The translations under genes and the position numbers were made by a program. From a virus, in the IMG/VR virus record IMGVR_UViG_3300030329_003574, positions 1 through 39,974 of that record: 39,974 nt of DNA. One strand, given 5' to 3'. Below are positions 17,507 to 34,249 of this stretch, piece after piece (within the stretch, counting starts at the first letter, position 1; the number at the start of each line of letters is the position of its first letter). A model generated the notes under the pieces. It ran no database searches. It saw nothing but the letters and a program-made list of their open reading frames with translations, and was not told where the DNA came from.

Positions 17507-18415
17507 TTATAACTTACCGTTACCAAAGACACATCTTGGATCTGAAAATCCAAATGAATATCTTTCTCTAGCTTTAAATCTAACGTTACCAGTATCGAAG
17601 TCACCTTCCATTGCAGTTTTGATCGGTGCTCTTACGAACATTTTAAAGCCATTAGGCACATCCGTCATTAGGAAGTAAGCATCATTGTCAGATAAAAAGT
17701 TATTCACTCTGTATCCTTGTGGTACCATTCCCATAGAAACGATTGCGTTAATGTCATTATCTGCTGTGCTCGTTCTTTGTGGAGACTTCATTAATCTCTC
17801 AGCTGTAAATTGTAATTCTTTTGGAATTATCATTTTTACACCTTGAGATGCGATTTTTAAGCCTCTTTCGTCAACGAACGATGAGATATCGATCAACGAT
17901 TGCTCAAGAGAAGTTTCGTTTAAGTCAGCTGCAGTTGCTAATACGTTACTGAATGTACCGCCTGTCGCTAATGGGTGGTTATTCGCTATTAACGGTTTAC
18001 CATCTCCACCAGGGAAAGCTGCATTTTCAGCATTGTTTAGAATGTTAGCTGCTTTAACTTGCTTCGTGTTAGACATAGATCTTGCAAGTGCTCTAGTGTA
18101 TCTAGCTGCAAGTCTGTCATAAAGGTTATCTTCGATTGCTTCTTCTGTGATAGCAAATGCTAAAGCGATTGTTTCGTGTGTGTATCTAGCTGTGAATGTT
18201 TCATTAGCTTGATCGAACACTACTCCAGCACCTTCTTGTTTAGTCGGTGCAGAAGCGAAACCACTTAACATTACTTCTTCTTCAAAAGCTCTGTCAGATG
18301 TTTCAGTAGCGAAAATCTCTGCGTGTTGATTTTCGTACCTGTTATATTCCAGGCCGAACAAGGCGTTCAATCCTGGCTCTAGTTCTTTTACTAGCTGTGA
18401 TCGTGATATTGCCAT
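17507..18415 (-). CDS. Major capsid protein
   Basis: A 302-residue protein, typical for a HK97-fold major capsid protein of marine podoviruses. It has an N-terminal helix region (RSQLVKELEPGLNALFGLEY), a middle TARYTHETIALAFAITEEAI segment and the spine-helix-rich segment DRLAARYTRALARSMSNTKQ. The C-terminus FKARERYSFGFSDPRCVFG is typical of the Mu-like subgroup. The position behind scaffold and decoration genes and the strong terminator just after it support this role. No protease is visible nearby, so maturation may not require cleavage. Confidence 0.85.
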   Translation of the reverse strand: MAISRSQLVKELEPGLNALFGLEYNRYENQHAEIFATETSDRAFEEEVMLSGFASAPTKQEGAGVVFDQANETFTARYTHETIALAFAITEEAIEDNLYDRLAARYTRALARSMSNTKQVKAANILNNAENAAFPGGDGKPLIANNHPLATGGTFSNVLATAADLNETSLEQSLIDISSFVDERGLKIASQGVKMIIPKELQFTAERLMKSPQRTSTADNDINAIVSMGMVPQGYRVNNFLSDNDAYFLMTDVPNGFKMFVRAPIKTAMEGDFDTGNVRFKARERYSFGFSDPRCVFGNGKL

Positions 18416-27824: not shown

Positions 27825-28261
27825 TATTTTACTCCTTCAAATTTTCCACCTTTGATAGCAGCACCCATACCTCTAGCTAATCCACCAGAGCTATATTTAA
27901 TTTTGCCACCAATTGTGATTGATTTTTGTTTACCTCGTTTTGATCCTGTTATTCCATATGAATATTTATCTCCAGATTTTCCTACAGTAAAATCATATTT
28001 AGTTGGTGGACTATCATAATCTTTGTATTGTGTTTTCTCTACGCCAGCCTTAATATCTGTTCCACCTTTTGTAGTTACGCTAACACTTGGACCTATCGTA
28101 GTTTCCTGATCATCTTGATACACTTCTAATTTTGGAGTGATAACACCTTTTTCTTTTATTTTTTTTCTAACTGTAATTGGTGAACTTGGTCCACTAATAT
28201 TCTCAGGGACAGGGACTTGTCTAATTCTGCTCATATCTATTGTTTTCATAACCATGATCAA
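27824..28261 (-). CDS. Small protein downstream of large terminase
   Basis: A 145-residue protein, basic at the ends, with beta strands in the middle (GPSVSVTTKGGTDIKAGVEK, DKYSYGITGSKRGK) and a C-terminal GGLARGMGAAIKGGKFEGV tail. The GGLARG.G.A.KGG tail also occurs in other phage proteins of this type. Its ATG overlaps the terminase stop by 4 bases. Function unknown; probable virion component. Confidence 0.65.
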   Translation of the reverse strand: MIMVMKTIDMSRIRQVPVPENISGPSSPITVRKKIKEKGVITPKLEVYQDDQETTIGPSVSVTTKGGTDIKAGVEKTQYKDYDSPPTKYDFTVGKSGDKYSYGITGSKRGKQKSITIGGKIKYSSGGLARGMGAAIKGGKFEGVK

Positions 28262-29739
28262 TAATATTTATATTCTTTTTCTATCTTAAAATTAGGTGCA
28301 TCTAATTCGTCAGTGTAAGTGCTAATAAATCCACCTTGCCTGAATCTTATCACAGCTTGGGTCATAGAATCAACATAGTCATCGTATTGTCCGTTAGGAA
28401 AAGCTGCACATTCTTCAATAACCTCTTGAGCAAATTTTTCATGTAAAGGCGCATAAACCATAGCTGATTCAAATATTGGAGCTACAGAATTTATTCTTGT
28501 ATGTTTATCTCTACCTTTTGCCGGAACATAATCTATGACTGGAATACCAGCTCTTCGAAGCTCATGAATCAAAGGTTGTCCTGATGCCTTGGCCTCAATT
28601 ATAACTGTTTCAGGTTGCCAGTATTTATATTGTTCTAACGCTACATTTTTTAAATCTGGAAAGTCATATCTTCCTTTCATAGCGTCTAATAAAATTATGC
28701 AATCTTCATAACCTTCTGCTGGTTGAAATATTCCCCACGTAGTTATGGCAGAATAATCAGCAGTTTCTTTTTTAGAAAACGCAGTATCATAGCTTTGTAT
28801 GACATGTTTAAGTGCGGGTAATTTTTCAAACTCCCAATCCTGCCACCAATCTCTTTTTATGATAGCACCTTCTTCAGAAGTTGGATCTTGCATGTATTGT
28901 GCATTCCAATTTTTTGTAGATACAGAAGCTTTAACACCTTCAAGTTCTTCTAATTTCCAATACTCAGGCCAAACAGGATTCCCACTTTCAAGTATGGCAG
29001 GGAATGATATTGTTCTCCACTTATCTGATTTAGGCTCAGATTGTGATCTGATGAGCCTTCCTGTTAAATCATCGGTAGCCCATCTTGTCATTACAACAAC
29101 AATAGAACCACCTGGTTGAAGTCTTTGTCTGGGTCCTGAACTATACCATTCAAATGCACGATCCATTGCGGAATCGGACATTGAATCTTGTTCTGTATGT
29201 GGGTCATCGATAATAAGAAGATCCGCCCCTCGTCCTGTAATAGAACCGCCTACCCCCGCTGCAAAATATTCTCCACCATGATTAGTCTCCCAACGTCCTT
29301 TAGCCTTACTATCTTCCCTAAGTTTAACATCTCCAAAAATACTTTTGTAGTCTTCAGTCTCCATCAAGTTTCTAACTTTGCTACCGAACCTTGTTGCAAG
29401 TTCTGCGTTGTGAGAAACTTGCATTAATTTCATTTTAGGATTACGGCCTATCATCCAAGCAGGAAACAAGTAAGATGCAAACTCAGACTTGGTATGTCTC
29501 GGTGGCATATTCACAATTAAACGATTATGTTTACCAGTGGCTATTGATTCAAATTCATTTGCAATGATTTGATGATGACCAAACTTTGTAGGATCTGTTG
29601 TGTCTCTACAAATAAAATCGGGCCACATTGCTCGCACAAATATCAAAAAGTTATCCTGACATAATTTTATATATTCGATCTGCTTTTTTAAAATTAACGC
29701 CCGTAGTTCGTCATCTGTAAAATTATCAAGACTTGCCAT
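28258..29739 (-). CDS. Terminase large subunit (TerL)
   Basis: A 493-residue protein. Residues 78-86 (MPPRHTKSE) are the Walker A variant and LLIIDDP at 174-180 is the Walker B of the packaging ATPase. The nuclease domain shows SYDTAFSKK, VIIEAKASG and YDDYVDSMTQA, three acidic clusters that bind metal for cutting DNA. It powers DNA entry into the head through the portal. The small subunit is 4 kb away at 33722-34249, so the pair is split. A promoter-like site lies just upstream. Confidence 0.9.
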   Translation of the reverse strand: MASLDNFTDDELRALILKKQIEYIKLCQDNFLIFVRAMWPDFICRDTTDPTKFGHHQIIANEFESIATGKHNRLIVNMPPRHTKSEFASYLFPAWMIGRNPKMKLMQVSHNAELATRFGSKVRNLMETEDYKSIFGDVKLREDSKAKGRWETNHGGEYFAAGVGGSITGRGADLLIIDDPHTEQDSMSDSAMDRAFEWYSSGPRQRLQPGGSIVVVMTRWATDDLTGRLIRSQSEPKSDKWRTISFPAILESGNPVWPEYWKLEELEGVKASVSTKNWNAQYMQDPTSEEGAIIKRDWWQDWEFEKLPALKHVIQSYDTAFSKKETADYSAITTWGIFQPAEGYEDCIILLDAMKGRYDFPDLKNVALEQYKYWQPETVIIEAKASGQPLIHELRRAGIPVIDYVPAKGRDKHTRINSVAPIFESAMVYAPLHEKFAQEVIEECAAFPNGQYDDYVDSMTQAVIRFRQGGFISTYTDELDAPNFKIEKEYKYY

Positions 29740-31684: not shown

Positions 31685-31752
31685 TACTAAAATCAAACGA
31701 AAAAATTCGTAGGATTACAGGAGGTTCTTGCCTCGTGGCGCAAGTCATAGCA

Positions 31753-31874
31753 TAGAATTATTTTAAACTAGTTCCAATCAGAACGACACGAGACGGCATT
31801 GTCCTGCCGGGGGGCACAAAGCTAGTTTAGAATGATTCTAAACTGGTTGTAATAAGAACGACACGAGACGGCAT
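31753..31874. repeat. 47-bp direct repeat pair, 75-base period
   Basis: Bases 31753-31799 and 31828-31874 align without gaps with six mismatches of 47. Both end in AGAACGACACGAGACGGCAT, which is identical. The second copy starts in an 17-base palindrome (31826-31842), the first copy has a decayed version. Nothing codes here: the 31685-31873 stretch has no supported gene. Forms the left edge of the GC-rich island. Confidence 0.8.
31824..31844. promoter_or_regulatory. Perfect dyad operator-like palindrome
   Basis: AGTTTAGAAT-G-ATTCTAAACT gives 10-bp arms around one base. Its core TTTAGAATGATTCTAAA fits, as I remember it, the consensus of the Irr iron-control element (TTTRGAAYNRTTCYAAA) used by alphaproteobacteria. 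It lies in the left repeat pair, 170 bases before the DUF2958 gene and just beyond the membrane peptide gene. Regulator identity is inference. Confidence 0.5.
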
Positions 31875-31986: not shown

Positions 31987-32166
31987 TCACGCTACCTTCT
32001 TTCCCACTAGTATTCTTACTCCCTGCTTTTTCCAGGGCTCGGCCAGCAGTGCCAGCTCAGCACGCAATGTATGGAGCTGCTCAGTTGTAATATTAGCGAC
32101 GGTTACCGGGATCTTGGCCTTCTTGATTCTCTTTGGTTTATAGCTATAGCTTTTTGTAAATGGCAT
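31987..32166 (-). CDS. 59-residue basic protein behind the tandem RNA leader
   Basis: Start ATG at 32166 follows AAAGGAGGATAAG, a full ribosome site; an in-frame ATG upstream at 32202 lacks one. The product starts MPFTKSYSYKPKRIKKAKIP, then VTVANITTEQLHTLRAELAL and ends VRILVGKKVA. The middle helix and Lys/Arg ends suggest nucleic-acid binding. GC is well above the phage average. It is the first gene below the 344-base structured leader and its promoter, so it is probably controlled through that RNA. No family recognised. Confidence 0.7.
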   Translation of the reverse strand: MPFTKSYSYKPKRIKKAKIPVTVANITTEQLHTLRAELALLAEPWKKQGVRILVGKKVA

Positions 32167-32196: not shown

Positions 32197-32224
32197 GGGC
32201 ACCGTACCGCTAGGTCCGGTGCCC
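32197..32224 (-). promoter_or_regulatory. Hairpin just before the ribosome site of 32166
   Basis: On the minus strand GGGCACCG and CGGTGCCC pair over 8 bp; past one mismatch, three further pairs (ACC/GGT) close a TAGC loop. It ends 58 bases before the start codon. With no U tract it is not a standard terminator and could instead control access of ribosomes. Confidence 0.7.
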
Positions 32225-32568
32225 GTTTAGTCAGTTGTTAAGGCTCGTATACCAGGAGCCGTAGTCAAGCAAAGTGCATCGCGCTTCAAAGCTTTAAGGG
32301 TATGACCCGTCTCTACTTGACCCCAGACCCGAAGTGAATTGTACCATCGAGGTTTATCGGTGATCAACCGACCTCTAGGCACGCATGCCATCGGATCAGG
32401 ACTCAAGTTTGGCCAAGTTTACGGAATGCTATCACCACGTTTAAGGCAAATCTTGGCAGAGCCGCTTAACTTGACCCCAGAACCAAGTATACCTACCAGC
32501 TAGCAGTCGGTCGGTTTAACAAGATACTAGCGATCTCTCACCGCTTGGTTCAGGGCTCAAGCTTTCTT
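32225..32568 (-). ncRNA. Tandem structured RNA, two 154-base units
   Basis: Between the promoter at 32575-32604 and the gene at 32166 no gene fits. Unit A closes by CUUGAGCCCUGAACCAAG (32544-32561) with CUUGGUUCUGGGGUCAAG (32470-32487), 16 of 18 pairs. Unit B closes by CUUGAGUCCUGAUCCGA (32391-32407) with UCGGGUCUGGGGUCAAG (32316-32332), 15 of 17. Both 5' and 3' arms repeat at exactly 154 bases. Each stem has the same G-G and U-U mismatches at positions 6 and 10. Position 16 changes A-U to G-C and position 13 A-U to U-G, while position 7 changes C-G to U-G; the wobbles exist only in minus-strand RNA. Inside unit B are GGCA/UGCC (32376-32387 area) and GAGGU/ACCUC hairpins; unit A has AGUAU/AUACU. 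Other small stems follow (GGCTC/GAGCC, 32242-32260). It looks like a two-domain leader RNA; ligand or partner unknown. Confidence 0.7.
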
Positions 32569-32574
32569 ATGAAC

Positions 32575-32604
32575 GTTATATAAGACCAGATGGGAGGATG
32601 TCAA
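32575..32604 (-). promoter_or_regulatory. Sigma70 promoter of the structured leader
   Basis: The minus strand has a perfect TTGACA (32599-32604), then 18 bases and TATAAC (32575-32580; alternatively TATATA at 16). Transcription would begin near 32568 and enter the tandem RNA immediately. Its orientation agrees with the strand bias of the RNA covariation. Confidence 0.7.
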
Positions 32605-32698: not shown

Positions 32699-32850
32699 TT
32701 GTAGTTCTTATCCGAGAAACGTGATTTATGAAAACGACAAACGAGCTTCGGCACCACCAGTTCCGCCGGTGACTGAGCTCCTAGCACAGCCTCCGCGGGG
32801 CGATTGTAGTTCTTGTACGAGAAACGAGATTTATGAAAACGACAAACGAG
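32699..32850. repeat. 47-bp direct repeats, 105-base period, GC-rich
   Basis: Bases 32699-32745 and 32804-32850 agree in 44 of 47 positions. Each is preceded by TCCGCGGGG (3-base gap difference). Both end in GAAAACGACAAACGAG. A weaker third version, GAGAAACGAGGTTTCAGTAA followed by ACGAGG, is at 33016-33041 inside the nuclease gene. The stretch 32605-32851 has no convincing gene; the plus-strand frame through the repeats reads them twice and is likely chance. Confidence 0.8.
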
Positions 32851-32851
32851 A

Positions 32852-33346
32852 TCAGGAGATCCGTGCTAGATCCAGCTCCGTCAGGCTGCCGGTGCCATCC
32901 CTTACCATATCCGCGAACCGAGATTCTCTAACGAGGGAACGAGAACGAGAGCTACGCTGCTGAAGGAGCTCCCAGATGGCATCCTGGAAGGCGGGCCAGT
33001 GTACTGGAGTCGAGAACGAGAAACGAGGTTTCAGTAAACGAGGATCCGAGAACGCGGACACCGGTCTGTACAGTTTGTAAGCACTCTCCAAGAGGGAGTG
33101 ATTGCAGATCAAAACAATACCACCAAAGTGTAAATGTTTATTTATCCAACTAATTTGCCATTTAGAAAGCTTTGGATACTTGACCTTGTCTGATTTTAGT
33201 TCCATCCAAAAACCAGTTCCATTCATACACCCATTAAAGTCAGGTATGCCATTAATTGTTTTAGATTCTATGCGAGTAAAATGTATTTGATTACAGTTCT
33301 TTTGAATCAATCTAGATAGCTTTGACTCTCGTTTTTTTGTTGCCAT
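32852..33346 (-). CDS. PD-(D/E)XK nuclease with GC-rich C-terminal extension
   Basis: A 164-residue protein. Residues 30-85 are a VRR-NUC / resolvase-like nuclease core: GIPDFNGC with D36 and GFWMELKSDK with E49-x-K51 form the metal-binding triad. INKHLHFGGIVLICN is the following strand. From about residue 95 the protein changes to Arg/Ser-rich sequence (RSSRSRSLVRESRF) encoded by GC-rich DNA carrying ACGAG-type repeats, so the tail has a different base history from the core. Probably cuts branched or foreign DNA. The core is intact, so activity is plausible. Confidence 0.7.
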   Translation of the reverse strand: MATKKRESKLSRLIQKNCNQIHFTRIESKTINGIPDFNGCMNGTGFWMELKSDKVKYPKLSKWQISWINKHLHFGGIVLICNHSLLESAYKLYRPVSAFSDPRLLKPRFSFSTPVHWPAFQDAIWELLQQRSSRSRSLVRESRFADMVRDGTGSLTELDLARIS

Positions 33347-33650: not shown

Positions 33651-33765
33651 TTACTTCTCCAACCATAGTCTTTATGTCAGGGTTATGCACCTCATTAAAT
33701 AAAGTTATAAATGATGACCAATTATAACTTTTGAGATATTTCTTTTGTCTCTGGCTTAACTTCAA
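33625..33765 (-). CDS. Possible 46-residue gene with TTG start
   Basis: A frame open across the 71-base space between terminase small subunit stop (33722) and the start at 33650. It encodes SYNWSSFITLFNEVHNPDIK and TMVGEVNVKATKKK. Codons look natural, but no ATG serves and TTG at 33765 has no clear ribosome site; the first third lies over the terminase gene. Gene packing suggests something is here; real only if a start exists. Confidence 0.35.
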   Translation of the reverse strand: MKLSQRQKKYLKSYNWSSFITLFNEVHNPDIKTMVGEVNVKATKKK

Positions 33766-34249
33766 TCGTTTTGGCGTTGAAGCCGTCGATCTTGTTTGAA
33801 AGCTCTTTGAGTTTCTTTTCAAGCTCTGCACGTGACATACCCTCCAATCCTGATACTCTAACTTCTTTCTTATCAATATATAGACCAGCTAATTGTCCTG
33901 ACCTGTATTCTGCATTTACAGCTGCTGAGTATTGTTTATTCTCTGCTGCCAAGTCAGCATATCTTTCTAATCTTCTATATCTTCTAATTTTATTTCTCTC
34001 GTATTTAGAGGATGCCTCATCTAATTTTTTATCTAAGTATTTACAAATGTGTGGATTTAATTTTCTATTGGTTAATCTGCTTGCTATTACAGAGTAATCA
34101 TTATCGTTCTTACATTCATATTTTGCTTTTCTCAAAGCATCTGATTTAGTAATCTCACCCCAGTTTGCAACTAATATATCAACAAACATCTTTTGTTTTA
34201 TAGTTAAGTCCTTATCAGTTCTTAATTCTTTCTTTTTAAGGCCAGGCAT
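33722..34249 (-). CDS. Terminase small subunit-like protein
   Basis: A 175-residue protein. The N-terminal LTIKQKMFVDILVANWGEIT followed by KSDALRKAKYECKND and NPHICKYLDKKL matches the small terminase pattern LT.KQ..FV......G..T..AL..A.Y, with helix-turn-helix DNA recognition. The C-terminal half is coiled coil and suits oligomer formation. It should pick the packaging site. It lies 4 kb upstream of the large subunit, with the GC-rich island between them. Confidence 0.7.
   Translation of the reverse strand: MPGLKKKELRTDKDLTIKQKMFVDILVANWGEITKSDALRKAKYECKNDNDYSVIASRLTNRKLNPHICKYLDKKLDEASSKYERNKIRRYRRLERYADLAAENKQYSAAVNAEYRSGQLAGLYIDKKEVRVSGLEGMSRAELEKKLKELSNKIDGFNAKTIEVKPETKEISQKL

Follow-up and report, generated by a model that had tools for sequence, protein, structure and literature searches.

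The window, that is, the whole stretch of 39,974 bases that was analysed, is an IMG/VR virus record with a GC content of 36%. Its TerL is 71% identical to that of Pelagibacter phage HTVC023P and 64% identical to that of HTVC027P, which places the window among the HTVC023P-type phages of SAR11, the most abundant bacteria of the ocean. The genes of the minus strand follow one another in the order TerS (33722-34249), a VRR-NUC-like nuclease named from a reading of the sequence (32852-33346), the array region, small ORFs, TerL of the phrog_38 type (28258-29739) and portal. The next gene 3′ of the array, which lies outside it on the same strand (31987-32166), encodes 59 aa (MPFTKSYSYKPKRIKK...) behind the Shine-Dalgarno sequence AAGGAGG, and no family match was found for it.

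The array, one of a family of arrays carried by HTVC023P-type SAR11 phages, consists of two modules on the minus strand that, with their c strands, occupy 32561-32263. Directly 5′ of it lies a sigma-70-like promoter (32575-32604), in which TTGACA (32604-32599) and TATAAC (32580-32575) are separated by an 18-nt spacer; a strict promoter scan misses it because the final T of the -10 box is absent. Promoters scoring at least 10/12 were found within 60 nt 5′ of 13 of 193 arrays, against 2.8 in shuffles, a modest enrichment. Module 1 starts with strand a (CTTGAGCCCTGAACCAAG, 32561-32544), followed by domain X1 (32485-32546; 62 nt inside CC..GG), whose two hairpins have mutually complementary loops, GCTAGT (32531-32526) and GCTAGC (32504-32499). 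Strand b (CTTGGTTCTGGGGTCAAG, 32487-32470) pairs either with a or, by its GGTCAAG, with strand c (CTTGGCC, 32411-32417), from which it is separated by domain Y1 (32418-32469); AAA and the next strand a come after c. Module 2 repeats this arrangement with strand a (CTTGAGTCCTGATCCGA, 32407-32391), domain X2 (32331-32392; 62 nt, nested stems with the loop palindrome TGATCA at 32366-32361), strand b (TCGGGTCTGGGGTCAAG, 32332-32316), domain Y2 (32270-32315) and the variant strand c CTTGACT (32263-32269). The stem-loops thus extend over 32561-32470 and 32407-32316 with equal inner gaps of 62. A tail hairpin (GGCTCCTGGTATACGAGCC, 32242-32260), which also accompanies the array in L113 and has a variant next to that in L160, is followed by a GC-rich hairpin (GGGCACCGGACCTAGCGGTACGGTGCCC, 32197-32224) that closes the region and falls in part within the computed fold. 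GC-rich ACGAGAACGAG / CTCGTTCTCGTT repeats, perhaps another RNA or DNA array, were seen at 32699-33060 of the window and in L032, L047 and L068.

The first-pass annotation had interpreted 32225-32568 as a tandem RNA leader with covarying closing stems, a range that was well chosen. Both arms of unit 2 are displaced from those of unit 1 by exactly the 154 bases that it reported, the two stems share a G-G mismatch at position 6 and a U-U mismatch at position 10, and the differences noticed between them are C-G against U.G at position 7, A-U against U.G at position 13 and A-U against G-C at position 16. Two stems by themselves prove little, and the folding z-scores are around -2 (MFE z -1.95 for the window region). 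Homologues were first found in 27 contigs with a two-arm pattern, and the collection came to at least 394 units, at least 305 of them distinct, in at least 231 loci, nearly all of them IMG/VR contigs; the genome scan and the early scans of viral contigs covered the CCTGGGG form of the arm, and a later viral-contig scan was wider. One candidate array, L211, lies in GC-rich, coding-like DNA and was rejected as fortuitous, about one such match being expected by chance. L210 is a phage contig binned into an Actinomycetota MAG, its array identical to that of L135, and L012 (13,440 bases) is a single large inverted repeat with an array in each half, probably an assembly artefact.

Among 177 distinct units picked on positions 1-11 alone, pairing was near-perfect at positions 12-17 and strong at positions 18-19, with many pair types; at position 16, 165 Watson-Crick and 9 U.G pairs were counted where 57 and 20 were expected. 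When the partner strand was slid by 1-3 bases or shuffled, the signal was lost. Pairing of the homologues at positions 12-19 confirms that the stem structure in the window is real. The mismatches are conserved as well, G.G in 294 and U.U in 280 of 302 units. In about 2100 cells at positions 12-18, a 5′ U faced a 3′ G 130 times and A.C occurred 10 times, which assigns the structure to the minus strand of the window, the sense that the annotation had derived from the wobbles and in which it had placed its promoter. The tandem array is thus almost certainly a structured RNA. It was also said to be of an unrecognised kind, which agrees with the search of Rfam 15 (4227 families including GOLLD, ROOL, pRNA and riboswitches): the window matched no family at the gathering score and nothing relevant at E values up to 10, and the array units of 12 and a further 8 array loci gave no match either.

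Comparison of the homologues defines a module as a-X-b-Y-c, in which a and b close X and c can pair with the same b, closing Y. The a:b stem has about 19 positions with conserved mismatches. The second domain, which lies between successive units, has CTTGRCC at its end, and in most cases AAA and the next arm come after it; strand c follows 187 of 297 units, a c-to-a distance of 10 being the rule. Strand c is complementary to GGTCAAG, the outer half of b, and the ends of the Y domains covary (position 2 is Watson-Crick in 72 of 124, with 32 expected), from which it follows that b is common to both helices. Strand b is predicted to serve two helices that either compete or abut. By nearest-neighbour energies a:b is the more stable helix, with a median advantage of 3.2 kcal/mol over b:c, which may accordingly be a minor helix. 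Positions 1-9 are invariant within the main scaffold and, for this reason, are no proof of pairing by themselves. A second scaffold, ACTGATCCCTG...CTGGGATCAGT with c′ = ACTGATC and the same inner CCC + U.U stem, is carried by sister phages that were retrieved by their terL, independently of the motif, and in it a, b and c are altered jointly; c′ follows 10 of 30 scaffold-2 units among the matches listed, against 1 of 297 scaffold-1 units. A third scaffold, suggested by L315/L317, did not recur. Arrays hold from 1 to at least 7 units, with hairpin lengths of mostly 54-104.

The segments enclosed by this scaffold are diverse. The units listed contain 285 distinct X and 181 distinct Y domains. 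By sequence these form about 285 families without saturation, of which 186 have a single member, and the Chao1 estimate is about 554 families. Of the 99 families with several members, 32 have the same domain as X in one array and as Y in another. X1 has 8 homologues, in which 98.4% of cells are paired and 7 pairs show double changes (0 of 500 shuffles), and two other scaffolds with unrelated stems, those of L249/L275 and L315/L317, carry it as well; X2 has 5 distinct homologues, whose consensus fold shows double changes too. This interchange of X and Y, together with the presence of X1 on other stems, means that the domains are portable cassettes shuffled between arrays and positions. Within modules, neither complementarity between X and Y nor common palindromes exceeded chance, and palindromes were the only sequence motif common to domains in general.

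The commonest hexamers in unrelated domains are the palindromes GTGCAC, ATGCAT, ACTAGT, TCTAGA and GCTAGC, and palindromic hexamers number 322 in the domains against 225 after shuffling (z 7), with no enrichment in the flanking phage DNA. The enrichment concerns many domains, not all, and MFE folds put about half of the palindromes in stems. Within single families one palindrome is replaced by another, as in CGCGCG / CGATCG / CAGCTG (also CGGCTG, with G.U), in CCATGG / CCTAGG / GTGCAC and in the GAGGTAAA family, whose natural loops are CCGCGG, CCTAGG or CGCGCG. When the central dinucleotide changed, the palindrome was kept in 52 of 109 ordered comparisons, those inside a family being non-independent, against 0/47, 2/38 and 0/51 for three false pairing rules put through the same test; such switches occur in 17 families, against 0 or 1 in controls. 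Since adjacent central bases cannot pair in cis and 41 of the 42 switched variants have no other partner inside the domain, pairing between two molecules is the reading that is left. Self-pairing between molecules through palindromic loops is therefore regarded as probable, and the pattern is that expected of symmetric intermolecular kissing loops with palindrome covariation, as in GOLLD and ROOL. The domains of the window itself contain palindromes without switches among their few homologues, and the X1 loop has a partner in cis.

The position of the arrays in the genome is constant, 0.6-3.6 kb upstream of terL in all 113 loci where terL is in reach, and their strand is opposite to that of terL in 109 and the same in 4, of which the window is one. 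The genes that recur next to the arrays are terL, terS and those of the VRR-NUC-like and GP88-like proteins, the last two named from sequence reading, and the flanking genes often have their own promoter 3′ of the array. Scaffold-1 or scaffold-2 arrays are present in 15 of the 22 terL relatives whose upstream region is complete; as the terL used for this search was itself taken from a contig with an array, the share is no global estimate. In most of the closer relatives of the window the place of the array is taken by GC-rich CTCGTTCTCGTT repeats, which marks this place as hypervariable. The palindrome TTTAGAATGATTCTAAA, which we take to resemble the alphaproteobacterial iron-control (Irr/ICE) box, was noted in 26 of 135 array tails, near the array of the window (31748-31874) and right after the last c in L004, L008, L109, L119, L124 and L173. 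About 20 loci, including L003, L006, L009, L135 and L163, have a tiny zinc-ribbon-like ORF (ICPICxEFTxYDEWAKPQVACINCGVEE) just before the array.

Searches by blastn with whole arrays or the c-a junction found no array in 50,697 phage records, and the array of the cultured phage HTVC027P was found only once the second scaffold had been recognised. It has one scaffold-2 module (18049-18100, minus strand) in the unannotated gap between gp34 and gp35, with a promoter-like TTGACA...TATATT 5′ of it and Y, c′ and a Flavobacterium-1 RNA (Rfam RF02976) after it. This RNA, which to our knowledge is known but uncharacterised, lies directly 3′ of the array on the same strand (17753-17873 of the HTVC027P record, MN698241; L212:5754-5874 minus) and also occurs in an array contig (L184:7674-7795 minus), being the only Rfam family matched in the array loci searched. 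Phage 023Pt_psg01 has a unit too. Heptad repeats such as CAAGCTTCAAGCCACAAGC lead into the TTGACA of promoters 3′ of arrays in HTVC027P (L212, about 17.4-17.7 kb) and in many array contigs.

The best reading of these data, to which we give an even chance, is that of a self-assembling, non-coding phage RNA composed of modular kissing domains. The array would be transcribed during infection and fold module by module, and copies of the transcript, or identical domains, would hold one another through kissing loops, so that the multivalent array builds a homotypic RNA assembly; as its use we favour a scaffold or a sequestering body inside infected cells. That an RNA-only assembly is the purpose of the array is slightly doubtful. 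We propose more tentatively a combinatorial self-recognition, in which domain shuffling gives every phage a private set of homodimerising domains on the scaffold with its shared strand, and transcripts of the same phage type assemble into an RNA-only body. Alternatively, the domains might act like aptamers, as decoys for factors of the host or of rival phages or as inhibitors of them, and owe their diversity to an arms race, with stems that serve stability and exchange and palindromes that are secondary. Unsaturated diversity, shuffling and the changing content of a hypervariable locus would suit such decoys, an unlikely explanation that does not predict the change from palindrome to palindrome in 17 families.

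The fixed place upstream of terL raises the question of whether the elements act as DNA, as one-strand hairpins for recombination, like attC, or as packaging sites near terS/terL. Hairpin lengths like those of attC, cassette-like exchange and mismatches in a conserved stem agree with this, and G.T is also allowed in single-stranded DNA. However, the recurrent neighbours include no integrase, attC core boxes and ORF cassettes are absent, the orientation towards terL varies, and inside the domains there are covarying folds and palindromes that tolerate G.U, which makes a DNA-level function improbable. It is quite improbable, too, that the transcript is a precursor processed into small RNAs, in which every domain would regulate different targets by pairing: the common stem with its invariant mismatches could be a processing signal for independent domains, but the loops are kept by compensatory change and not by match to a target. 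Finally, the initial interpretation as a leader or two-domain riboswitch was right about a structured, covarying RNA outside Rfam with a promoter in front, and its functional part was not supported. A cis-regulatory role would fit the promoter in front and the genes behind, and in L132 and L182 the last c lies about 18 nt 5′ of a start codon. Neither one conserved aptamer fold nor consistent downstream genes were found, however; the arrays, whose units number from 1 to at least 7 and whose domains change and are unrelated, stand in variable orientation before genes that often have promoters of their own, none of the domains goes with one particular downstream gene, and the domains of the two window units are unrelated, each with its own homologues elsewhere. 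This role is highly improbable.

The arrays appear to be undescribed so far, as no prior description was found in the literature searched, which is weak evidence since subscription papers were mostly outside it. Work on marine RNA motifs from 2009 reportedly concerned the IMES motifs. We know of no close match to an architecture in which a single scaffold carries hundreds of exchangeable folded domains whose loops are kept self-complementary by evolution. Kissing-loop multimers are known already, and, as far as can be told, the combination of exchangeable dimerising domains with a shared-strand scaffold is new. As a natural library, the arrays would supply small modules for RNA dimerisation, and the proposal is directly testable in cultured HTVC027P, stranded RNA-seq of this phage on HTCC1062 being public (PRJNA1253180; PMC12753301). 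If true, arrays for self-recognition within a phage would be a new kind of modular viral RNA.

The closest known systems are GOLLD and ROOL, phage and prophage RNAs that form RNA-only multimeric cages (PMC12286853). A Nature 2025 study of GOLLD, ROOL and OLE saw kissing loops by cryo-EM and used the same palindrome-covariation argument for those of OLE and GOLLD (PMC12286853). Like GOLLD and ROOL, the arrays are non-coding and phage-borne and have several domains, with kissing loops supported by palindrome-to-palindrome covariation. In contrast, GOLLD and ROOL each form one large fold of about 600-800 nt with a single consensus, whereas the arrays consist of modules of about 150 nt with hundreds of exchangeable domains on a common a/b/c scaffold without an Rfam match. 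The Flavobacterium-1 RNA has another fold and sequence, and array units do not match RF02976. The pRNA of phi29 uses two different interlocking loops and the gp16 ATPase. It is a phage RNA that multimerises by loop-loop pairing, as the arrays would, and the array locus lies between terS and terL; unlike phi29, array phages encode TerS and a phrog_38-type TerL in place of a gp16-type packaging motor, and their arrays have no Rfam match. Integron attC arrays share the tandem one-strand hairpins, the conserved mismatched stem, the variable loops and the exchange of cassettes, but the arrays described here have arms that read CTTGAG/TCAAG, folded domains between the stems and no nearby tyrosine integrase, attC boxes or ORF cassettes. 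The retroviral dimer initiation site uses palindromic kissing loops, including GCGCGC and GUGCAC, as the arrays would. It occurs once per genome, whereas each array displays many different palindromes.
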